This document shows, in pieces, positions 8,707 to 44,423 of a stretch of DNA of 52,198 nt. Origin of the DNA: Bacteroidota bacterium (GTDB lineage: Bacteria; Bacteroidota; Ignavibacteria; Kapaibacteriales; UBA2268); assembly GCA_021824625.1 (NCBI GenBank), contig JAKAKE010000003.1:1-52198 (forward strand), read 5' to 3'. Below the pieces are notes generated by a model. The model did no database searches. It had not been told where the DNA came from and saw only the letters and a program-made list of their open reading frames with translations. A program made the position numbers and the translations under genes. Numbering within the stretch: the stretch's first letter is position 1; each line of letters opens with the position of its first letter.

Positions 8707-8789
8707 GATTCTCATGATTAATTTGATTTACATTATTATTAAACTTTCATCACTATAATCATAAAAATAACACAAGTCAAATTTCAGAC

Positions 8790-8818
8790 AAAAAAAACCC
8801 ACGATTTACTTCGTGGGT
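8790..8818 (-). terminator. Rho-independent terminator of the FadL-type gene
   Basis: On the minus strand, an 8-bp stem (ACCCACGA with TCGTGGGT, 6-base loop) is followed directly by eight T residues. It begins about 30 bases after the stop codon of the FadL-type gene at 8846, so it should end that transcript before lpxC/fabZ. Confidence 0.88.
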
Positions 8819-8845
8819 CTTTTATATTAATAAGAAAAAATTCTT

Positions 8846-10108
8846 TTAATCAAGTGTCATGCACAAACCAAGGCTAACAGCGATAATATTTGTATTATGT
8901 GTACCCGGCATTGCATGGAAATTCGGGTCTCCAGTTTTAGGTGCGGCAATAACCCTTTCGGTTCCCATCAGATATTCAGCTCCGAAGTCAATGTTAAACT
9001 GACTCGTTAACTTATAACTTGCACCTAATGTTAGTGCATTATATGTTATGCTTGGGAAAAGTATATTTAATGTATTGTCTGGGGCAGGTGCCGGGTCGTA
9101 ATAATAGCCTAATCTAATTGCAAATTCATTGCTCAAATCATACTGAGCACCGAATCTGATTTGCATGGCATCCTTCCAATCCAAATGCATAACGGTATCT
9201 TTACCGATTGCACCCTTCCACTGGGGAGATTTGTAATCAGTAATCAATGAATCCTCAGTATTGCTCCACATGCTGTACTGCACATCAAATGCAAGTGTCA
9301 AATTTTCAATCGGGAAAAATGCAATACCTCCGCCAAACCACATGGGCCATGCAACATCTCTGCTGAATTCAGATTCAGGTACATTCACTGCCTGCATTGC
9401 AGGATTTTTGGCAGTGCCTTCAAATTTAATATTATTTTCGGTTTTGAATGATAAACCTATATTTAATAATTTATCTGGCTTTACCAATATTCCAAGGCTG
9501 CCTCCAATACCTATTCCTGTACTTGATTCTGTATATTGTGCGGGTTGAGCATATCTTTCCAAATCAAACATCCCATAATGAATATCTAATGAAGCCCCGA
9601 CAGAAAACATATCATTTATCTTGTAAGCGATAACAGGTGATATATCAAATACTGCAATTTTTGTTTTCCACACATAAGATTTCTGATTTGATAGTACCTT
9701 TAGTTCGTTTCCGTCCCACTCTGTTCCAAGCCCTGCGGGGACATAAGCACCTAATCCAACAACGAGGTCGCCTTTCATTAATGGTATGTAACCTGCAATA
9801 TTTGGGCTGATATAATGATTAGGCTTACTTTTAGCATCAGCAATAACAGTATTATCCGCTAATACATATTTGTAAGTTGACGATGGAATAACGTCTGTGA
9901 CAAATGCCGCAATTTGTATTTTATCCAGGTTTGTTATTCCCGCAGGATTCCAATACACAGCAGTGTAATCATCCGCCAATCCGATAAATGCTCCGCCCAT
10001 TCCGAGTGATTTGGGTCCAATACTGTTAAGGCTTAAGCCGTTTCCAAAGGTTAGTGATACCGTAGCAAAAAATAAGGCTGCCGCTAAGCAGGTAATCCTG
10101 AATTTCAT
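8846..10108 (-). CDS. OmpP1/FadL/TodX-family outer-membrane channel
   Basis: Outer-membrane beta-barrel for uptake of hydrophobic compounds such as long-chain fatty acids. A signal peptide covers residues 1-22. The mature N-terminus has the family's plug motif: SLGMGGAFIGLADDYTAVYWNPAG. The rest is a run of amphipathic strands typical of the 14-strand FadL barrel, with IGIGGSLGILVKPDKLLNIGLSFKTE and GGGIAFFPIENLTLAFDVQYSMW as recognisable strand pairs, and a C-terminal strand SLGLCMTLD. The 420-residue length is normal. It is a single-gene transcription unit: a terminator follows it and a palindromic repeat (10154-10183) precedes it. The actual substrate is not inferable; FadL-family members in this group are often several per genome. 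Confidence 0.9.
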   Translation of the reverse strand: MKFRITCLAAALFFATVSLTFGNGLSLNSIGPKSLGMGGAFIGLADDYTAVYWNPAGITNLDKIQIAAFVTDVIPSSTYKYVLADNTVIADAKSKPNHYISPNIAGYIPLMKGDLVVGLGAYVPAGLGTEWDGNELKVLSNQKSYVWKTKIAVFDISPVIAYKINDMFSVGASLDIHYGMFDLERYAQPAQYTESSTGIGIGGSLGILVKPDKLLNIGLSFKTENNIKFEGTAKNPAMQAVNVPESEFSRDVAWPMWFGGGIAFFPIENLTLAFDVQYSMWSNTEDSLITDYKSPQWKGAIGKDTVMHLDWKDAMQIRFGAQYDLSNEFAIRLGYYYDPAPAPDNTLNILFPSITYNALTLGASYKLTSQFNIDFGAEYLMGTERVIAAPKTGDPNFHAMPGTHNTNIIAVSLGLCMTLD

Positions 10109-10153
10109 TTTACCTCCAATGATTTGTTAATAATGAATTGTTTTTTTATTTAT

Positions 10154-10183
10154 AGTAGTGGTTCAAAATTTTGAACCACTACT
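10154..10183. repeat. Palindrome copy with matched changes in both arms
   Basis: A perfect 30-bp palindrome with arms AGTAGTGGTTCAAAA and TTTTGAACCACTACT. Compared with the 8673 copy, the GGGG of the left arm has become GTGG and the right arm has changed to match (CCAC). It sits 46 bases upstream of the FadL-type start codon. It is followed by TTTTTTTCCCG, the same tail seen in the half-palindromes at 5.9 kb. Confidence 0.88.
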
Positions 10184-10304
10184 GTTTTTTTCCCGATTAA
10201 CAAATGGACAGAAAATATTCTATCCCAACAAATTGTAAAATATGAAAAAAAAAATTATTAATTCAGGAAAAATTGATTTTGGATGATGTTTTTTTATTTT
10301 TTCC

Positions 10305-10333
10305 GTAGGGGGTTAAAATTTTAAACCCCTGCA
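10305..10333. repeat. Palindrome copy downstream of the PorU2-like gene
   Basis: Arms TAGGGGGTTAAAA and TTTTAAACCCCTG. The C of the canonical left arm has become T and its partner G has become A, so pairing is kept at that position; one other position is unpaired. It lies about 40 bases past the stop codon of the 10376-16198 gene, with a T-run beside it, and may add to transcript termination. Confidence 0.8.
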
Positions 10334-10375
10334 AAAACCAATACGGTGGGGGGGAATTATGTTGTTGCTTGAAAT

Positions 10376-13300
10376 TTATCTCATTATAACAAATTTACCA
10401 AACAACGGGTCAACGTAGAAATCGGATTCTATGGTAATTCTGTAGAAGAAAATACCTATTGGAAGTGAGGCACCGTTCTCATCTCTTGCTTCCCAGTCAA
10501 ATTCATTATTGCCGATAAATATTTCTTTTTTGAATGAAGAAACTTTCTGGCCGGAAACATTGTAAATGGCTATGTCGGCAATTGAACCCTGATGGGGAGC
10601 TTTGTAGTAAAAGCTAAAGGTTGTTGCATTTTCAAACGGATTCGGACTATTCTTAACATTATCAACATACCCGTTTAATGAAACAAAGACAGTAATTCTG
10701 CTGGTATCCCTGTTACCGGTAGCATCAGAGTAATAAATGGTTATATCATTTGCGCCTATGTCAAGCGAATCACTTATGAAGGATAATTTTGCTTTAACGG
10801 GTCTTTCTTTCTCTTTGGATTCAAATATCCATTTATTATCTGTCTTTTTTTTCAGGATATGAGCATTTAATCTTACTTTAATATCATCTTCTTTAACAGG
10901 TAAAATTGAGTTATCGGATAATGAAATTTCCATCGAGGGTTTAATAGAAACAAAATCACCATTTTTTACTTTGATTCCATCCAATTTTAATTCAATAGTC
11001 GGTTTTATTGTATCCTCGATGATATGGAGGAGGCGTTTTTCACTATTATTAAAAGTGTAAATATCTTTTTCGTTACTGTCTAATGATAAAGAAGCAAGTA
11101 AATTAGTGTGGGTATCGAGAAACTGAGTTTCAAATACAAATGAAGCTGCTGATTCCTCATCCATGTCAAGTTTATTCACATTTGAAGGATATGTTAATGG
11201 TGAGTTGTCTTCCGAATAAACAATTAAATCCATAGCAGATTTTTCAGAACCTGTTCTTTTGGATATATTTCTTACTGTGTAACTTGATGTAAAAAGTTCG
11301 CCGCGCATAATTGAATCCGATTTGATAATACAATTATCTTTTACAAAAGATAATTCGGGAAGAGGATTAAAACATGATGCAATTGATGTAATGTAACCTG
11401 CAGCAGTGTCATTATTCCGCTCAAGGTCAGCTTCCAATCTTAAATAAGGATATTCATCAGCATTTATTTCTGATAAATCAATTGACGTTGAAGTATCATT
11501 TTCAATTAGCTTATCATAATTATTTTTATCATAATGTATTCCAAAAACAATAATTTTATTTTTTGTATTCCCTGAATCCAGCTTGCCTTTCAATAACAAA
11601 TTCTTCCAATGCTTAGCGGGGCCAATAATTGGAGTTTTGAGATGACCTTTTCTCATTTTAATTTCTAGGTTGCCTGTGATTTGAGCAACATTACCTGTTA
11701 AGTTGAGAGACTCGGGAATCGAGCCGACAGGGGAGCCTCTTCTGCCAACCATAACAAATGAAATTGGGTCATAATTTGTTTTTGAAGTTATCGAATCAGC
11801 TAATTTTGAACCATATAGCCTGAGATAATACTTTAGTGAATCTAATGAACCAATGCTCTTTGGATTTAATTTCATACTATCCACAAAAAGCCTGAATGAT
11901 GCACCGCAGGTAGCTATTAAAACATAATCGTCAGTGTCAACTGAATCTTTTAAAAATCTTACACACTTAACTCCATTTAAGGTCTGTGAAACACTCCAAG
12001 TATCGAAATTACGTTTCATTTTGTAACTACCGTCTTTTCCTGAAGCAACAACAATATTGAATCCAATCGGTACTTTTGAGGCATCAACATAAGGTTTCCC
12101 ATCCAATCCTATTTCAACTGTTCTATCAATTATACCATCAATACCATGGACACTCACAAGATTAAATGGTAATAATTTGGTTTCAAAACTAATCCTGGCT
12201 GTATCATCAATTGATAAAATACTCAGGCTGTCAAGTTGAATAGTTGATAATTGCTCTTCGCCTTGCAAAGTATATTTTACAACTCCACTATCCTTTGAAG
12301 ATACAGTAGAAAAAGGAACCCACAGAACCCTGCTATCAATTCCACCTGGAGTACTTTTCTTATAAGCAACAAACCAGTAAGTTCTGTTAATATCACGCCT
12401 CCACTGCGGCTTCCATTCAATATGAGTCTTATAATCAGTAATTTCATCAGCCAAAGATGAATAATCAGGTTCGGTAGTTATGTTTTTTCTATCACGAATT
12501 TCAAAATTATAGACTGTATTGTTGTTACATACGGGGTCAATAACTCTAAAAACAGGACCGGAGGCTCTCATATCCCAGAAGGGCAAAGGCTCTAAAGGAA
12601 CAATCCCCTGAGAGAAAACTTCAAATGAAAAAACAGAATAATTATTATTGGGATTTGCATCCCTCAATAAAGAATATGGGTCAATTTCCAAAATAACCTT
12701 GTGTTTACCGGGCATTTCCCAAATGGGAATTTTTATTTGAAATTGAGCTTTCAAACAGATTCCGGGTAAGAAAATTACAACTGTATCAAGGTGATTTTCA
12801 TACTCCCTGATTAATCTAAATACCACAGAATCATATTGACAAATTCCCCCATTATAAATAAAACCCGAAATTGTAACAACGGAATCGCTTTCAGTAATTA
12901 CAGTTTCATTATTTCTATTTATTATTTTAATATCTTCAGGTACTGTATATAAGTCAGGCTGTGTTTTTATCTTTAGTTTTACTAAAGGGTCACCCAGAAG
13001 AGTAAATTGATAAATAGTAGTAGAATCGGAACCCTTTGAATATAACTTCGATTTACCATAATTAAGAAAATCACCTATTTGCCTGATGTTAAGATTAGTA
13101 TCGGCTAATCCGGCTACCATTTTCATCATTAATACTCTATCGGATGGAACGCTGCTTCCACTTGAAGACCCGGCGGAACAAATACTTGCACGGTCAGGTT
13201 CAAGTGTATATTCTTCATTTCTACAAACCAGGTCAGGCTCGGCAAATGCTGCTGAATTGCATCCGAAAGTAGTCAGAAAATTATATTTTGGTTTATTATT

Positions 13301-35513: not shown

Positions 35514-38500
35514 CTATTTCACAATGACCACAGGTTTAACAAAAGACTTTCCGTTTTTCATAAATTTCAAAAAGTACAAACCCTGAGAAACATTATCAAC
35601 CCTGATTTTGAAATTGTATGGATTGTTAGACAAATCATTATTTTCGACAATAATCGTTTGTCCATATAAGTTTGTCAATGAAATATCTGTTCTGCTCAAA
35701 TCAATCTCACTTTGAATTATGAAATGTCCTTCCGATGGATTGGGAAAAATACTAACCTGATTATTTATGCTTTTAATCTCATCCAAAACACCCACAGGAA
35801 TTTGTATGGACAATTCGGCATCAACATTGTGAGATTGATTATCCGGGTCAATTGTTATGTCGAAAGAATAATGCCCATAGCCTAATTTGTCAATATTGAC
35901 ATGGTAATCACCTGCTTCGAGGCTGTCGAGTTTATATACACCCTTTGAAGTTGATATATTATATTTCCTGACCTTTTCATCATTACTAACAGTAATTACA
36001 ACAGCCCCCGATACTGCTTCCTTAGCGAGTGGACTGTCGCCGGGCTTCAAAAACGCAGGAAGCTCGTCTCCGGTTATACTTCCGAAAATACTTCCATTAC
36101 CCGTGGTTGGTACTCCAAATGGCAATGAAATAATATGAGGCCCGCTTTGTTCACCTGAAACAATTTTTACCAACGTTCCATCCACCCAAGATGGAACTGC
36201 TGTAGCATCCTTCTTAAAGTAACCAGGAACGTATTTGTCCCTATCCGGTATTGCAAGCAAGAGATAATCTCCTTCTGCCAAATTCTGAAATTCATAATTA
36301 CCACTTATACCGGTTATAAAAGTTCTTGCATCAAACATAGATGCAATGTTTGAATCTGCCGGGAAGACTGTAAGATTCAGAACTATTGATTTAATTGGTT
36401 CTCCATCAACAGTTTCAACTTTTCCAAACATCCTGTTTGAAGATAAAGGGGCAATTTTCAATGCAAAATTTATATTATTGATATCACCTGTAAACTCCAC
36501 AGGTGTTGCCTCAGTTATATTTCCCGTCCCGGAGAAATATTGAATTACATACATCGGATTCTGTGGAACATTTGCCCAAGATGTATAGCTGTATTTTTCA
36601 TTCAAATCAATTGCATAATCTCCAGATTGATTTGTTGAAGTGCTGTCAATGGAATCAATGCTTTGAAAATACACGGTAGCATTTTCGATCGGATTTGAGT
36701 TTAATTCATCAATAACTTTTCCACTTACCGAATAATTCCTGAATAAATTAACTGATAAATTGACAGTAGTTGTTTCTCCACATGGTGCATCTATTATTGT
36801 GGCGGTTTGTTCGGATGTTTTATCTTCATACCATTCTCCCCTGAAAGTTGGACCTTCAACATAAACCCTGCATTTTCCTTCATCAACCAAAACCCTGTAA
36901 TTACCATTGATAATTGAACCGGTATAATAGCCAAGGGAATCCATTCCGCTCACAGAAACTATTTTTACACTTCCAGTTGGAACTGAATTATTATTTTCAT
37001 CTATGACATTACCACTGATATATGTATCAGTTGTACATGAACGGACTTTAATCCACCATTCCTGGATAACGAAAGAATTTACCGAATCGGTCAGTAAATA
37101 AGCTTTAAGTTTTACCTTATATCCTCCGACATCTTTAGGTGTCCACCTTATCTCACCTGTTTTTTCATCAATTGTCATATCTACTGGTTTATTAATCAGC
37201 AGATATCTTAATACTCTTTTTCCGTTTCCTGTAACAACCGGGTTATAGTTATAAAGACTGCCGGTAACAGTTGAATTGGATGGTGTCGATGTGATTGTCA
37301 GATTTTGTGGCGGTATTCTTTCTACAATCAAATTAATTTCAGTCGTATCTCCACAAGGGCAAGGAACGGCTATGGCACTATCATTTGAAGGTTTGTTGTC
37401 ATACCATTGGCTAATGAACCCTTCGCCATCAACAAAAACCTTACAATTACCCTCGTCAATTTTTACGAGATATGTCCCATCTTCCCCAATCCTTCCAAAA
37501 TATATCCCAAGTGAGTCAATACCGCTATCATTATAAATTTCAATATTTCCTTGTTTAATAATATTTCCGGAACCATCTTTTACATTTCCTTTTATAATAG
37601 TTTCTTCAACGCAGGACTTTACCTTTATATAAAAATTCTTGTATGCAAAGGAATTTAATGAATCGTCTAACAAATATGCTTTTAATGAAACATAAAATCT
37701 ACCGATATTTGATGGCGTCCATTTTATAAGTCCGGTTATTGGGTCAACAATCATGCCTTGCGGTGCTGTATCCAGTGTATATCTTAGTTCCCTGCCACTG
37801 CTTGACATTGCTGCTCCATTATAAACATATTCATTTCCCAGCAATTCAACAAGATTAGGTTCATAAGCAAAAGTAATGGTATCAGGTGGATTTTTTTTAA
37901 CTACCCAATTTAATCTTGTGTTAGTCCCGCATGGGCCTATTATAGAATCTGCTGCATCCATCGTTAATTTATCATTATACCATTCCTTGGTAAAACTTCC
38001 TCCTTCGATTGATAATTTATAAGCTCCTTCGAGAACTTCAACCCTGTAACTGCCGTCATTGCCAATCAAGCCATAATAGACACTGTCAATATCGAGGTTG
38101 TTAGCACTATGTGCCGTTACCAAGCCACTTCTTATAGTATCACGGTTTTCATCAACAACAATGCCCGAAAAATATGTGGGATTGCTGCATGATTTAACCA
38201 AAAGCAGCCATGATTGGTCTTTGTCACAATCTGATGTGTCAATCAGAATTTCATCAGATAATGTGCCGTCCGATTTTCCTTTATCTGCCAAACCGACAGG
38301 ATTAAAATTCAGATATGCATTTAATGTAACATTATACCTGCCGGTTGCAATAGGAATCCACTGCACTTGTCCAGTCAGCCCCACAACTGTCATTGATAAC
38401 GGTTTAACCTTTAAAAAATAGTTAACCGGAGCTGTGTCGGGTGATGTTGCATTAGCATTATACTGATACAATGTGGCTACCGAACCTATTGTCGGGGGAG

Positions 38501-38933
38501 CCGTTGTGAATGTAACATCAACATGCCCTTGTTTGAATCTTGCCTGTAACAGATTTGATGCAATACTTTCATACTCAATCAAACCGAATTTTTTTATCGC
38601 TGTAATGTAAAATGTATAATTTCCGGTATAAAGAGGGTTCGCATTAACTGTCCAGGCAGTATCCGTACCGTACCTGTTAATAGTCTGATAATATGAACAC
38701 AGCAAATAATTATTTGTAAAAATATTTGCCTTGTAAATTTTAAATTTTGTTATGTCATTTGTATCTCCTGAATTCATTGTCCAATCCAGCTTAAAATGAG
38801 TATTAGAACCCGTTCCTTCTAATGTCAGATTTCGAAATGTCGGAGGATTTGGAGGAGGCTGTGAATCGGCATTAATTTTAATAAAGACTATGCCAAGTAT
38901 TAATAACAATATTGACTTTATTGCAATTTTCAT
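35514..38933 (-). CDS. Secreted Ig-like/CarboxypepD_reg repeat protein with T9SS tail
   Basis: 1139 residues, exported by signal peptide (SILLLILGIVFIKINADSQ) and T9SS. After an Fn3-like N-terminal domain (FRNLTLEG...FKLDWTMNSGD) a composite unit occurs three times (residues about 145-345, 350-550, 555-745): a putative-Ig module (MTVVGLTGQVQWIP; MIVDPITGLIKWTPSNIGRF; MTIDEKTGEIRWTPKDVGGY) followed by a carboxypeptidase-regulatory-like module whose ends read GEGFISQWYDNKPSND and GPTFRGEWYEDKTSEQ. Then come three more regulatory-like folds (NYSVSGKVIDELNSNPIENATVYF; GKVETVDGEPIKSIVLNL; YKLDSLEAGDYHVNI). The last about 75 residues are a type A sorting domain (VSIFPNPSEGHFIIQ, VSQGLYFLKF, VKPVVIVK). 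No enzyme domain is visible; it is likely a surface or matrix adhesin-like protein, but function is open. Confidence 0.85.
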   Translation of the reverse strand: MKIAIKSILLLILGIVFIKINADSQPPPNPPTFRNLTLEGTGSNTHFKLDWTMNSGDTNDITKFKIYKANIFTNNYLLCSYYQTINRYGTDTAWTVNANPLYTGNYTFYITAIKKFGLIEYESIASNLLQARFKQGHVDVTFTTAPPTIGSVATLYQYNANATSPDTAPVNYFLKVKPLSMTVVGLTGQVQWIPIATGRYNVTLNAYLNFNPVGLADKGKSDGTLSDEILIDTSDCDKDQSWLLLVKSCSNPTYFSGIVVDENRDTIRSGLVTAHSANNLDIDSVYYGLIGNDGSYRVEVLEGAYKLSIEGGSFTKEWYNDKLTMDAADSIIGPCGTNTRLNWVVKKNPPDTITFAYEPNLVELLGNEYVYNGAAMSSSGRELRYTLDTAPQGMIVDPITGLIKWTPSNIGRFYVSLKAYLLDDSLNSFAYKNFYIKVKSCVEETIIKGNVKDGSGNIIKQGNIEIYNDSGIDSLGIYFGRIGEDGTYLVKIDEGNCKVFVDGEGFISQWYDNKPSNDSAIAVPCPCGDTTEINLIVERIPPQNLTITSTPSNSTVTGSLYNYNPVVTGNGKRVLRYLLINKPVDMTIDEKTGEIRWTPKDVGGYKVKLKAYLLTDSVNSFVIQEWWIKVRSCTTDTYISGNVIDENNNSVPTGSVKIVSVSGMDSLGYYTGSIINGNYRVLVDEGKCRVYVEGPTFRGEWYEDKTSEQTATIIDAPCGETTTVNLSVNLFRNYSVSGKVIDELNSNPIENATVYFQSIDSIDSTSTNQSGDYAIDLNEKYSYTSWANVPQNPMYVIQYFSGTGNITEATPVEFTGDINNINFALKIAPLSSNRMFGKVETVDGEPIKSIVLNLTVFPADSNIASMFDARTFITGISGNYEFQNLAEGDYLLLAIPDRDKYVPGYFKKDATAVPSWVDGTLVKIVSGEQSGPHIISLPFGVPTTGNGSIFGSITGDELPAFLKPGDSPLAKEAVSGAVVITVSNDEKVRKYNISTSKGVYKLDSLEAGDYHVNIDKLGYGHYSFDITIDPDNQSHNVDAELSIQIPVGVLDEIKSINNQVSIFPNPSEGHFIIQSEIDLSRTDISLTNLYGQTIIVENNDLSNNPYNFKIRVDNVSQGLYFLKFMKNGKSFVKPVVIVK

Positions 38934-39542
38934 TTTAAACCCCTCTTATTATGGGTTAATATTATTGTTATTTTATAATTTATGAAATTTTTTAATACAT
39001 TGTTCATTTTATAATGATCATTATTTCTTACAAATAAAAAAATTCAAGTAAATACCTAATTGCAAAAATAATTCCACAAAGTTTGCAACTCCAAATTAAA
39101 TAACTTCTTGAAAAGAAAAAAAATTGTTATATTTACTCTAAGGTTATGTTTGTATGAAAACACTATTTGCAAAAGATAATAACAGGTAACTAATCCTCAA
39201 AAAAAATTGAATTAAAATATTAGAATTGAAAAAGAAATTGCCATGCCCAAAATTTGGGCATGTGCAATTGAATATTTTATCATTATCGAAGTAAGGAAAC
39301 GATAATACTAAATATAATACCTATTTTTTTTGTCTTTGCTAATTACTTTATTATTTTATATATTTGAATGATGTTATGCCATAATAACTAATTCACAAAT
39401 CAGGGATTCAAATACTTGAATGAATTTGATCCCCAATCATGTTGCTGTTAGAGGTTATATTATTACATTATGTTGTAATTATTATAAATTTAAAGAAGAG
39501 CCATTATAATTCATTTCATTAATAATTTAAGGAGATTGTTTT
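38934..39542. other. Long divergent intergenic region
   Basis: 609 bases between two divergent T9SS-cargo genes, so both promoters should lie here. It is very AT-rich. The clearest element is the hairpin at 39236-39269. A good ribosome site (AAGGAG) ends the region before the 39543 start. I found no conserved open frame; the longest ATG-initiated short frames give 11 or so codons. Confidence 0.6.
39236..39269. repeat. Long imperfect palindrome upstream of the Cys-Cys repeat gene
   Basis: AATTGC plus CATGCCCAAA (39236-39251) faces TTTGGGCATG plus T plus GCAATT (39253-39269) around a single centre base: 16 bp of pairing with one bulge. It lies about 275 bases before the start of the 1626-residue protein gene and is in neither arm similar to the palindrome family of the first 10 kb. 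It could be an operator, a leader structure or a REP-type element. Confidence 0.6.
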
Positions 39543-42500
39543 ATGAAGAAAGTCTTCTATTTGCTAATTGCATTCATATTGGCAATAAGCATTAATACTG
39601 CATTTTCACAACAGCAATGCACAGCCAATTTAACAAATGATTGCGGCAACTGTTACAATTTTACTTTTACTAACAATTCCGGTAGTCCTGTGGATCAAAT
39701 TCAGGTATTAGTTAGTGGAGGTAGTTTTTATTTTAGCTGGGGAGGTGTTTCCTCTACAGCAGCTTCGGAGGGATGGACTTTTAGTCCGACTTCATTTAAT
39801 CCGAACGTTACTATGCTTACCTTTAATGGAGGAACCCCAATTCCAAATAATTCGACAAAGGGGAATTTCCATTTTTGTTTATCGGGGGATTTGCAGGGTG
39901 CACCTATTTTTACGTTCAGAGCTATAAGCAACAAACAGATTGTTTGTACAACCATGACAGAGCGGTCTAACATGGGAATATGTTGCGATAACCTTGTAAT
40001 GTCAGTTGTTAGCTCAGACCCAACACCTAATGACCAGGGAGATTGCTGTTATAATTTCTCATTACTTGCAAAGACAGAATTTCCGGGCCTCTTTTATGTG
40101 AGATTTAAGCCATTGCTAACCAGTGTTACTGTCGGAACTAAGATTGCTCCATCGTCCCCGGCAGGTTGGGGTACACCAAGCAACTATCAAAATGGCGCCC
40201 AGTTCCCTGCACCTGCAAATGGAATGATGCCGGGAGTTCATCAGTATTTCAGGCTTTGTGTCTTTATGCCTGCAGGAATAACAACATTCCCAATGGAAAT
40301 AACTTATGTTAGCGCAGCGGGTGGAATAATATGTACAGATACCATTCCATTAACATGTGATGTTTGTGCAGGATTGCATATTTATCCTCAATCTGTTACA
40401 AAAAATGCAAATGACCAGGGTGATTGCTGCTACACTTTCAAGTTATTAGCTGATAGAAATTATCCGGGTATTACGCATGTTCAATTTTCACCAGTCCAAT
40501 ACGGAGTAACTATCGGTACTGCTTTACCTCCATCTTCACCAACAGGATGGGGTGCTTCCACAACTGTTCCGCCAAACTCTGTAAAATTTGCTACACCGGG
40601 TATTATAGGAGCCGGACCAGGCCTGCCTGCCGGTACCCATGAATTATTTAGATTATGCTTCAATTTTGCTGCAGGCGTTACTGCATCTGATGTTGTTATT
40701 ACTTTCTTTGATGCTAATAATGACACAATATGTTGGTTTACAGAATTTATTGAATGTCAGACTGTTGACAGATGTGACAGCCTTAAGATGGAATATGAGA
40801 AAGTAACTCCAAATGCTGATGATATCGGTGATTGCTGCTATCAGTTCAGGCTTACAACAAACATTGATTTTCCAAGTGTTTCACTTGTTAAATTTACATC
40901 TTTAAGTGCTGCCGTACTGATATCATCCGCACAACCGCCTTCGAGTCCGTCGGGATGGTCATTGGCACCGCCGGCACCTCCCGGACAATCGGTTTCGTTC
41001 CAACCCCCGGGTGGCTATTTGCACGCCGGAGTACATGATGCATTCAGAATTTGTTACGATATTTCCGGTAATGCGGGTAATTTCCAATTGGAGGTTACTT
41101 ATATGAGTCCTACTGGTGGAGCTGTATGCAAGGATACTATTGATATAAAATGTGAAACTACTAACGATTGCGACACATTGAAAATGAATTATGAAAAAGT
41201 AGAGCCCACACCCAATGACCAGGGGAACTGCTGTTATCAGTTTAAACTGAACGCGGGAATGGATATGCCTGATATTTTCTACGTCAGGTTCAAATCCTTA
41301 TTAGCTTCAGTTCAAATTACATCTGCTCAGCCTCCGTCAAGCCCTGCGGGATGGGGAAGTGCAACTCCGACACCTCCGGGACAGGATGTTAGTTTTATGG
41401 CACCCGGCGGATATTTGCATCTGGGAACTCATGCTCATTTCCGTATATGCTTTGATATGCCTTCAGGTATTTCTTCACTTCCTGTGGAAATAGCTTACCT
41501 TAATCGGGATGGAAAAGAAATATGTGTTGATACAGTTCAGGTTGTGTGCCAGTCTTCAAAATGTAATGTCGAATGGAGAACCGAAAGAGTACCGGTTGAT
41601 AATAAAAATCTTAAAGGTGACTGCTGTTATATAATTGCTTTGATAGTTCCTACTGCGGTTCCGGGGGTTGCTTTTGTTAATTTCAATCCTATTAATCCGG
41701 GTGTTACAACAGCTACGGCATTACCGGCTTATTCACCTCCGGGTTGGGGTGCATCCGCTCCGTCAGGCCCAAATGGTGTGAAGTTCCATACTCCTGGTAC
41801 AGGCAACAATCTGCCAAATGGAGTACATAAGTATTTCAGGTTATGCTTCAATCTGCCTGCCGGTGTAACTACTTTCCCTGTCGAGGTGCTGTTTACAGAT
41901 GCAAACGGGCAGGTAATCTGCAAAGATACACTTATAATGGATTGCGTTAAGAAGGGATGTGAATTTGAAATTTATGGTGAAAGGTTACCAGTATCAACAC
42001 CTGCCACCACAGCAAATAATTTGGGTGATTGCTGTTATGCATATAAGCTGATAGCACACACAGATTTTCCGGGTGTTTTCTACCTAAACTTTATGCCATT
42101 GAATCCCAATGTTCAGATTACTATGGCTTCGACACCCGCAGTGCCTCCGGGATGGGGTTCATCTACACCTTATCCCCCAAATGGAGTCAGATATCTGACA
42201 CCGGGCTTGCCTTCGGGTATTCATGGAATTCCTGCAGGTATTCATGAATACTTCAGGATTTGCTTTGACCTGCCGCCAAATGTCTTTTCTTTCCAAATGC
42301 AAGTAGCTATGACAGACAGGGAAGGAAAAGTTATTTGTCTTGATACTGTTGATATAAAATGCGGTGAAGGCAATGGAACTTGTGATAACCTAAGATTGAA
42401 TTCGATTCTATACAAACCGACACCGAATGACCCGATAAGGGGAGAATGCTGTCAGTCGTTTATGTTTACTGCAACAGCCGATTTCCCGAATATTCATAGT

Positions 42501-44423
42501 GTTCATTTCGATTCACCATCTGCAACTATTGTTGGTGCAGTTGGTCCCGCAGGCTGGGTTGGTCCCAATCCTGTTCCACCATCGAATGGTGTTTCATGGA
42601 ATGTCCCGACACCTCCGGGAATGCTTACAGCCGGAAACCATGGTCCTTTCAAACTGTGCTTTGAATTGAAGGCAGGTGTAACAACCTTCCCTGTAATTAT
42701 CACATTCATTGACCAAAATGGAAATGTTGTCTGCAAATTTGAGCAAATGATTAATTGCAAGGATTGTTGTGACAAGTTTGATACAATCGAAGTTATACGC
42801 AAAAATATCAGACAGCTTCCTATAGCGCAGGGACGATTTATATGGCTTCAGAATACTTTAACAGCACTTCCTGGCCCTATCATCAGGACATCGGCAACAA
42901 TAGTTAGTGCTCAAATCCAGACACCGTCATCAACAGTTGCCTATCATACATATAGCGATATACTTGGTGCAAAAGCATTCCCTCCTTATTGGGTGCTTTC
43001 GGGTTCAATAATACCTTGTCCGCTTGGCGGACCCGGCACATCACCTTCGAATGGCCTTCAGGGTGTATATGGGACATTCAGGACTCAGCCATTTTACAGT
43101 CGTGAGCTTATTTGGGGAGATTACCGCCATGTATTGTCAAGTGTGATTCTCATTAATGCCAATATGGAAATGCTTATTATGTTCCCGCCGATTACAAGCA
43201 GGTTAGGTGACAGAATCAAGTTCATCATCAGGTATGAATTTACTGATACTAACTGCTGCACTTGCGACAGGCTTGTCGAATATGTAATTGACAGAAAGTA
43301 CTATAATGACAATCTGACTCATGGTACTGCAGAGAAGGGTAAAACCGGAGTAAAGGATATTGTTCAGGGACAGACCACTGAAAATGATGTTTATATAACA
43401 ATGACAGATTATCAAACAGGTACGTTGCATGTATCCAATACTTCAAGTGGAGATGATGCAATAACTATAACAAATGTCTGGCTTTTACCTCAATCTGTTG
43501 AAATTGATTCGATGCATGACAATTCTTCAGGCAATAATTCTGTTATTGAAGATGGAACAGCTAAAGTGAATGTCAACATTGGTGCAGGAAATTCAACTGA
43601 TATAGCATTATATTATGACAACGCACTTGAGAAAGGATTATTCACCAACACTGTAACTCTCAAGTTCGTATATGATGCAATGCCTCTTGACACGTTCACT
43701 ATACAATCTCAGGTAAATTCGAGAGTATCGGGCGGTGGCGGCGACCAGTTGGCATTAGACAACTCTGCCAATCTGCAGAATCTTCACACTTATGCTCTTT
43801 CAATAACTAATGCTAATTCATTCGAAGAAGGTATCAGGAGCATTGAGTTGAAAACACCGACAGGTGCAGATATCTTAGCTGTAGGTCCGACAATAGACCC
43901 ACAACAGATTATATTGAATGCTTACAGCATACAGGGTGGTGATAATCAGTTATTACCACAGGTGCCTGCAAGTGCTGAAGTATCGTCAATACTTCCGGGT
44001 GAAGCCGTTAAGCCAATTTACATTAGCCTGAGAGGTACAGGAACCGTTAACATTGATTTCCTTACTTATAATAATAATGGTGAGAAAGTAAGCGAGGGTT
44101 CATTCCAGCTAATAACTTCAGTTGTTGATTTGGATGATGGCGACAATCAAAACAGTGAGTTTGCTGTAATTAACTGCTATCCAAATCCTACTGCAGGAAA
44201 TGTTACATTCCAGTTCCTTGCCAAGCGAGATCTAAATAATGTATCTCTTGAAATAACTGATTTAACAGGACGTGTAGTAGCACATGTTCTGGATAATAAC
44301 TCTATTATTTCAGGCAACCATGTTGTTGTATTCAACACCAATAAACTGTCAAGCGGTGCATATTACTATACTTTAAGGAGTGGTAATAATTCTAAGTCAG
44401 GACTGCTGAATATTGTCAAATAA
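39543..44423 (+). CDS. Giant secreted protein of Cys-Cys repeats with T9SS tail
   Basis: 1626 residues: signal peptide (FYLLIAFILAISINTAFSQ), a first divergent Cys-rich module, then seven tandem modules of about 127-139 residues (residues about 150-1080). Each has an invariant GDCCYxFxL or variant near its start, then a hydrophobic FPGxxxVxF, GWG near the middle, GxHxxFRLCF near residue 95 and a closing Cys after ICxDT. The seven GDCC/GNCC/GECC codons start at about 40041, 40422, 40831, 41228, 41620, 42028 and 42445. I do not know this module from a named family. Residues about 1090-1500 form a separate beta-rich region, and the last about 85 are a type A sorting domain (VINCYPNPTAGNVTFQF, LSSGAYYYTL, GLLNIVK). 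Adhesion or a structural surface layer is plausible, not shown. Confidence 0.85.
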   Translation: MKKVFYLLIAFILAISINTAFSQQQCTANLTNDCGNCYNFTFTNNSGSPVDQIQVLVSGGSFYFSWGGVSSTAASEGWTFSPTSFNPNVTMLTFNGGTPIPNNSTKGNFHFCLSGDLQGAPIFTFRAISNKQIVCTTMTERSNMGICCDNLVMSVVSSDPTPNDQGDCCYNFSLLAKTEFPGLFYVRFKPLLTSVTVGTKIAPSSPAGWGTPSNYQNGAQFPAPANGMMPGVHQYFRLCVFMPAGITTFPMEITYVSAAGGIICTDTIPLTCDVCAGLHIYPQSVTKNANDQGDCCYTFKLLADRNYPGITHVQFSPVQYGVTIGTALPPSSPTGWGASTTVPPNSVKFATPGIIGAGPGLPAGTHELFRLCFNFAAGVTASDVVITFFDANNDTICWFTEFIECQTVDRCDSLKMEYEKVTPNADDIGDCCYQFRLTTNIDFPSVSLVKFTSLSAAVLISSAQPPSSPSGWSLAPPAPPGQSVSFQPPGGYLHAGVHDAFRICYDISGNAGNFQLEVTYMSPTGGAVCKDTIDIKCETTNDCDTLKMNYEKVEPTPNDQGNCCYQFKLNAGMDMPDIFYVRFKSLLASVQITSAQPPSSPAGWGSATPTPPGQDVSFMAPGGYLHLGTHAHFRICFDMPSGISSLPVEIAYLNRDGKEICVDTVQVVCQSSKCNVEWRTERVPVDNKNLKGDCCYIIALIVPTAVPGVAFVNFNPINPGVTTATALPAYSPPGWGASAPSGPNGVKFHTPGTGNNLPNGVHKYFRLCFNLPAGVTTFPVEVLFTDANGQVICKDTLIMDCVKKGCEFEIYGERLPVSTPATTANNLGDCCYAYKLIAHTDFPGVFYLNFMPLNPNVQITMASTPAVPPGWGSSTPYPPNGVRYLTPGLPSGIHGIPAGIHEYFRICFDLPPNVFSFQMQVAMTDREGKVICLDTVDIKCGEGNGTCDNLRLNSILYKPTPNDPIRGECCQSFMFTATADFPNIHSVHFDSPSATIVGAVGPAGWVGPNPVPPSNGVSWNVPTPPGMLTAGNHGPFKLCFELKAGVTTFPVIITFIDQNGNVVCKFEQMINCKDCCDKFDTIEVIRKNIRQLPIAQGRFIWLQNTLTALPGPIIRTSATIVSAQIQTPSSTVAYHTYSDILGAKAFPPYWVLSGSIIPCPLGGPGTSPSNGLQGVYGTFRTQPFYSRELIWGDYRHVLSSVILINANMEMLIMFPPITSRLGDRIKFIIRYEFTDTNCCTCDRLVEYVIDRKYYNDNLTHGTAEKGKTGVKDIVQGQTTENDVYITMTDYQTGTLHVSNTSSGDDAITITNVWLLPQSVEIDSMHDNSSGNNSVIEDGTAKVNVNIGAGNSTDIALYYDNALEKGLFTNTVTLKFVYDAMPLDTFTIQSQVNSRVSGGGGDQLALDNSANLQNLHTYALSITNANSFEEGIRSIELKTPTGADILAVGPTIDPQQIILNAYSIQGGDNQLLPQVPASAEVSSILPGEAVKPIYISLRGTGTVNIDFLTYNNNGEKVSEGSFQLITSVVDLDDGDNQNSEFAVINCYPNPTAGNVTFQFLAKRDLNNVSLEITDLTGRVVAHVLDNNSIISGNHVVVFNTNKLSSGAYYYTLRSGNNSKSGLLNIVK
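39990..42770 (+). repeat. Seven tandem Cys-Cys modules of about 130 codons
   Basis: In-frame protein-level tandem repeat inside the gene at 39543. Spacing between the Cys-Cys positions is 381, 409, 397, 392, 408 and 417 bases. Modules are more alike in protein than in DNA, so they are not a recent amplification. Confidence 0.85.

Follow-up and report, generated by a model that had tools for sequence, protein, structure and literature searches.

A cysteine-rich module, repeated in tandem in a protein encoded in the 52,198-nucleotide stretch of DNA analysed here (the window), from a member of the Kapabacteria, is a widespread but uncatalogued Ig-like repeat of Bacteroidota T9SS proteins. Its definition as a domain of surface proteins in this phylum brings with it a disulfide map that can be tested, deduced from the paired loss of cysteines among its relatives.

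The gene is intact and opens with ATG (Table 1). By eye, the N-terminus of its product resembles a signal peptide (MKKVFYLLIAFILAISINTAFS followed by QQQC), and the C-terminal tail exceeds the cut-offs of both type A sorting-domain models (PF18962, E 7e-10; TIGR04183, E 7e-8). We thus retain the signal peptide and the type A sorting domain named in a first-pass annotation of this DNA, the former on a reading by eye and the latter on the Pfam and NCBIfam cut-offs. The core domain that follows the modules is common to single-module relatives and to paralogues bearing DUF11.

Table 1. Features of the module protein and its divergent neighbour (window coordinates; cysteines as residue numbers)
Feature	Position	Strand	Basis
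T9SS surface protein, tandem six-Cys modules, 1626 aa	39543..44423	+	ORF reading; syntenic orthologues
Ribosome-binding site AAGGAG, 8 nt before ATG	39529..39534	+	sequence
Signal peptide, probable cleavage ahead of QQQC	39543..39608	+	read by eye
M0, diverged eighth module; Cys 26, 34, 37, 112, 135, 147; G015 orthologue without M0	39618..39983	+	
M1; Cys 148, 168, 169, 239, 264, 272	39984..40358	+	
M2; Cys 275, 295, 296, 372, 397, 405	40365..40757	+	
M3; Cys 411, 431, 432, 504, 529, 537	40773..41153	+	
M4; Cys 543, 563, 564, 636, 661, 669	41169..41549	+	AlphaFold pLDDT 94.8
M5; Cys 674, 694, 695, 768, 793, 801	41562..41945	+	
M6; Cys 806, 830, 831, 907, 932, 940	41958..42362	+	
M7; Cys 947, 969, 970, 1039, 1064, 1072	42381..42758	+	
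Conserved core domain, aa 1073-1256 (CCDxF ... SREL/VIWG ... FTDTNCCTCD)	42759..43310	+	
Two more all-beta regions, core to tail, conserved in relatives	43311..44162	+	moderate-confidence model
T9SS type A sorting domain, aa 1546-1618	44178..44396	+	PF18962, TIGR04183
Divergent neighbour, T9SS type A cargo, carboxypeptidase-regulatory-like repeats	35514..38933	-	synteny in 3 genomes

Modules M1-M7, of about 130 residues each, stand in tandem from aa 148 to aa 1072. When each was withheld in turn, the profile of the other six recovered it at E 2e-28 to 4e-48, which bears out the seven modules with a common motif described in the first-pass annotation. That description had overlooked an eighth, M0 (aa 26-147), matched at E 7e-5 by a profile from which it had been left out, and had counted four cysteines per module, where we observed six in each. 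The pattern is C-x(19-23)-CC-x(~70)-C-x24-C-x7-C; M0 keeps all six cysteines, with CGNC in place of CC. The eight modules hold 48 of the 55 cysteines of the protein, and the apparent CC at aa 147-148 arises where the last cysteine of M0 meets the first of M1. Most of the invariant columns are Cys, Trp, Gly, Pro or Phe, and GW and GxH are invariant throughout M1-M7.

The module has no sequence match in Pfam, NCBIfam or the PDB, and the literature searched, with partial coverage, yielded no description of the repeat. Scanning genome contigs with a single sequence gave nothing; an alignment used as the query gave relatives. In the class, a broader profile matched 59 of 391 genomes, as many as 11 modules occurring in some; at the level of the phylum, a narrower one matched 11 of 296. 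Named relatives include Ignavibacteria RIFOXYC2_FULL_35_21, Bacteroidetes FW215_bin.12, Ignavibacteriae NC_groundwater_1893 and Candidatus Kapabacteria MAGs. The profile search proposed earlier as a check thus returned relatives in the class and no named domain in Pfam or NCBIfam. The module had been called unassignable; this holds for the three databases, but it does not stand alone, being widespread in Bacteroidota T9SS proteins and of an ordinary predicted Ig-like fold.

Some relatives in the class are also tandem arrays in T9SS surface proteins, and others combine one Cys module with Laminin_G_3 or with unassigned N-termini. Domains found beside the module include SdrD_B, Laminin_G_3, PKD, Kelch and Kazal, and a T9SS tail is nearly always present. 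Within the family, a search with the core as query placed the core in 21 of 54 genomes and 13 of 27 genera; the multi-module form is limited to one genus and one related genome. The module protein is encoded by one gene per genome. We found no phage or plasmid relatives and no Rfam match in the window.

Full-length orthologues with the gene order kept are present in three genomes of the same genus (76-82% identity), and a genome of another genus in the family has an orthologue at 59% identity that lacks M0. In a tree of 35 modules from five genomes, each of M1-M7 forms one clade, so the array predates the split of these genera, and its positions have since escaped being overwritten by neighbouring ones. 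We therefore read the array as old, with its module order kept. At the DNA level the modules have diverged, their best-matching short stretches being 60-81% identical, and Tandem Repeats Finder detects no array of ~400 nt. Between same-genus orthologues, dN/dS is ~0.04-0.15 per module where dS is measurable, a rough figure, as many dS values are near saturation. Together, the clades and the low dN/dS mark the divergence as age under constraint. This agrees with the earlier view of a motif selected in diverging DNA, the selection being purifying.

Four matches to the PorV family exceed the cut-off in the genome. The divergent neighbour carries a type A tail by Pfam and NCBIfam and is indeed, as first annotated, another T9SS cargo. 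Beside this cargo pair lies a gene for a TPR-rich protein with a C-terminal CHAT domain (window:31753-35334), in synteny in three same-genus genomes; in genome G058, the module protein stands between two TPR-LuxR proteins (L037:2704-4605 and 8786-10555), without CHAT. The divergent intergenic region contains a strong inverted repeat (CATGCCCAAATTTTGGGCATG, window:39242-39262) that is terminator-like on the minus strand. Elsewhere in the window, a 1940-aa Peptidase_C25 protein with ILEI domains and a weak T9SS tail (window:10376-16198) is PorU/PorU2-like but below the NCBIfam cut-offs; it adjoins a FadL/PorV-like outer-membrane barrel (window:8846-10108), below the PorV cut-off.

Prediction of the structure of one module had also been suggested. 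AlphaFold, with 41 aligned modules, gave for M4 an eight-strand Ig-like sandwich with a mean pLDDT of 94.8, in which the cysteines lie at the starts and ends of strands. The best PDB matches in Foldseek were TTHA1873, CLIPPER 9IFR, pilins, cohesins and integrin sandwiches, at E no better than 2e-4, with identities of ~9-17% and Z below 9 in a second aligner. CLIPPER 9IFR ranked second (E 3.7e-4, TM 0.55, Z 8.2), level with unrelated sandwiches. As modelled, the module is an Ig-like beta-sandwich, and no nearer kinship is readable from its fold. Pore-forming toxins (second-aligner Z ~8-9) and the copper protein YcnI (Z 8.6) were rejected as functional leads, what they have in common with the module being the sandwich arrangement. 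From M7 to the protein end the model is moderate (pLDDT 67.6), and for this reason the Foldseek list for the C-terminal half was not taken as kinship.

The disulfide map comes from the co-occurrence of cysteines in 181 usable modules of the collected loci, with C2 and C3 denoting the first and second cysteine of CC. C3 and C4 are both present in 132 modules, both absent in 46 and discordant in 3 (concordant 178/181; phi 0.96). C1 and C5 are both present in 152, both absent in 21 and discordant in 8 (concordant 173/181; raw phi 0.82). The remaining pairs are uncorrelated or weakly correlated (phi -0.08 to 0.31), the loss of C1/C5 is independent of that of C3/C4, and C2 and C6 are conserved at 99-100% where aligned. 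When the manually reviewed set was restricted to 97 modules less than 50% identical, Fisher's test gave p 2.1e-21 for C3/C4 and 1.9e-16 for C1/C5. With the cysteines masked in tree building, the joint losses of C3/C4 require a minimum of 9 changes and those of C1/C5 a minimum of 11; well-supported branches alone force 3 and 2, respectively.

In four of the eight raw C1/C5 discordances, the cysteine counted belonged to the signal peptide or to the module before; two others were end-truncated or misplaced. In the last two, C1 is missing and C5 is a single cysteine, with an extra cysteine in the preceding strand (WC). With the outliers checked, phi for C1/C5 is near 1. The C3/C4 discordances are modules h126, h166 and h167; because two of them were later removed in review for truncated ends, the raw counts are safer than the reviewed ones.

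The paired losses strongly support the predicted disulfides C1-C5, C3-C4 and C2-C6 in each module, C2-C6 being assigned by elimination, as both cysteines are near invariant. Neighbouring residues in a strand face opposite sides, as would be expected if C2 and C3 bond to separate partners.

In one module subtype (L143, L153, L144-L150), WC is added in the penultimate strand, C5 is CC and C3/C4 are lacking; C5 is down to one cysteine when C1 is absent. This subtype probably forms an additional disulfide.

DsbB and VKOR families were not found at E 0.001 in 13 lineage genomes (G000-G003, G011, G015, G021, G035, G058, G059, G070, G194 and G308), nor was DsbA in six, and the controls were positive in other species. 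The uniformity of this absence means that incomplete assemblies do not explain it; an oxidase that has diverged, or an unrelated one, can. According to PMC4597128, Helicobacter pylori lacks the classical DsbA/DsbB and uses other proteins instead. T9SS cargo of the lineage genomes is rich in paired cysteines although no DsbA/DsbB/VKOR was detected. The module protein makes a question concrete, namely how tens of cysteine residues within a single exported protein come to be oxidised in Kapabacteria without detected DsbA/DsbB/VKOR.

Most carriers of the core in the family have a paralogue of ~1450-1590 aa with the same C-terminal half (core and tail) and with DUF11 (CLIPPER) type repeats in place of the Cys modules. 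One of these, L081, matches PF01345 at 1.8e-13, and the window protein gives no match to it even at E 5. A paralogue DUF11-type repeat (alignment A11) has invariant K6, D38 and N96, with spacings of 32 and 58; in the solved CLIPPER domain 9IFR, the residues are Lys715, Asp748 and Asn806, with spacings of 33 and 58 (PMC12617251). This Lys-Asp-Asn isopeptide triad is absent from the Cys modules, which have no conserved Lys at all. Profile-profile comparison detected no similarity of the Cys module to the paralogue DUF11 repeats and a weak one (66%), not used as proof, to the paralogue pre-core repeat. Judged by its sequence, the Cys module is not a member of DUF11.

The paralogues at L081:3446-7840 and in its relatives are conserved T9SS proteins of ~1450 aa, in which the DUF11/CLIPPER-type repeats are accompanied by a pre-core repeat that recurs (CIDSVKIEVKC...CRDSLMLDLPPC) and bears a weak similarity to the Cys module. 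No DUF11-bearing paralogue was found in the genome of the window itself.

With moderate confidence, we regard the protein as a T9SS-exported, disulfide-braced surface stalk, and not as an enzyme or metal site. We infer the stalk role from the predicted Ig-like sandwich, the paired cysteine loss, the kept array order, the DUF11 repeats of the paralogues and the PorV family in the genome. Each module would be a sandwich held by three disulfides (C1-C5, C2-C6, C3-C4), with each thiol of the vicinal CC bonded to a partner of its own. Lined up, eight of these domains may form a stiff rod resistant to proteases and stress, followed by the core domain, the two beta regions and the type A signal, which the T9SS would use for export and, presumably, attachment to the cell. 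Against this reading stand the failure to detect DsbA, DsbB or VKOR in the genome and its near relatives, the lack of an adhesive tip domain recognised by Pfam and NCBIfam in the window protein, and the single-module relatives, which imply that a long array is not required for the basic role of the family.

It seems rather unlikely that the modules are ligand-binding, adhesive or carbohydrate-binding, instead of a passive stalk, with disulfides that hold the fold only. Such binding would suit the invariance of GW and GxH, the fact that every module is a distinct evolving lineage, and the relatives that join the module with Laminin_G_3, Kelch, PKD and Kazal, domains typical of interaction proteins. 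However, the His of GxH is not retained outside the seven-module proteins, the conserved Trp may be buried, and long arrays of varied length elsewhere suit a stalk.

We hold it very improbable that the cysteines of each module bind a metal ion or cluster, which the first-pass annotation had offered beside disulfides. The vicinal CC with its additional cysteines, the failure to find canonical disulfide enzymes and the groundwater MAGs among the relatives, where conditions may be anoxic, would all agree with metal. A four- or six-cysteine site, however, should be lost whole, whereas C1/C5 and C3/C4 go independently as pairs, which argues against one common metal site; a conserved His to complete a site is also absent across the family. 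Of the two proposals, the two independent losses favour disulfides. No more credible is a protein that belongs to a coat or an S-layer-like structure instead of protruding as a stalk: S-layer and biofilm proteins occur among the many Ig-like chains that Foldseek lists for the C-terminal half (weak, TM ~0.1-0.2), but there is one gene per genome, no sign of abundance, and a multi-module form confined within the family as described above.

As a putative stalk protein, the product can be compared with several known systems. It resembles T9SS type A cargo (TIGR04183/PF18962) in its C-terminal sorting domain above the cut-off and in the PorV family of its genome; the export signal is identical in kind, whereas the passenger modules are uncatalogued. 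Fibrillar adhesins (PMC8286594, PMC9210967) have in common with it tandem Ig-like domains and export to the cell surface. Their trait of tandem stalk-type Ig-like domains is found here in eight modules, with M4 predicted to be Ig-like, but in the module protein a known adhesive domain was not found. Cohesins, Spa-type pilins and TTHA1873 have a general beta-sandwich arrangement like that of the module, but at such identities and Z values (above) they offer no evidence of kinship.

The closest parallel in architecture is with CLIPPER (DUF11, PF01345; 9IFR), which occurs in the stalks of fibrillar adhesins (PMC12617251). It is a CnaA-like sandwich and, like the Cys module as predicted, Ig-like, arranged in tandem in elongated surface proteins and covalently cross-linked, and CLIPPER-type repeats hold the same N-terminal part of the paralogues as the Cys modules do here. 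In CLIPPER, Lys and Asn are joined by an isopeptide bond, with Asp as the catalytic residue (PMC12617251), whereas the Cys module has neither the conserved triad nor a sequence match. We infer that one C-terminal scaffold bears stalks braced by either isopeptide or disulfide chemistry. A more tentative idea, which we think doubtful, is that the two chemistries are interchangeable, with the CLIPPER isopeptide in many genera and the triple disulfide, made by an unknown thiol oxidase, elsewhere.
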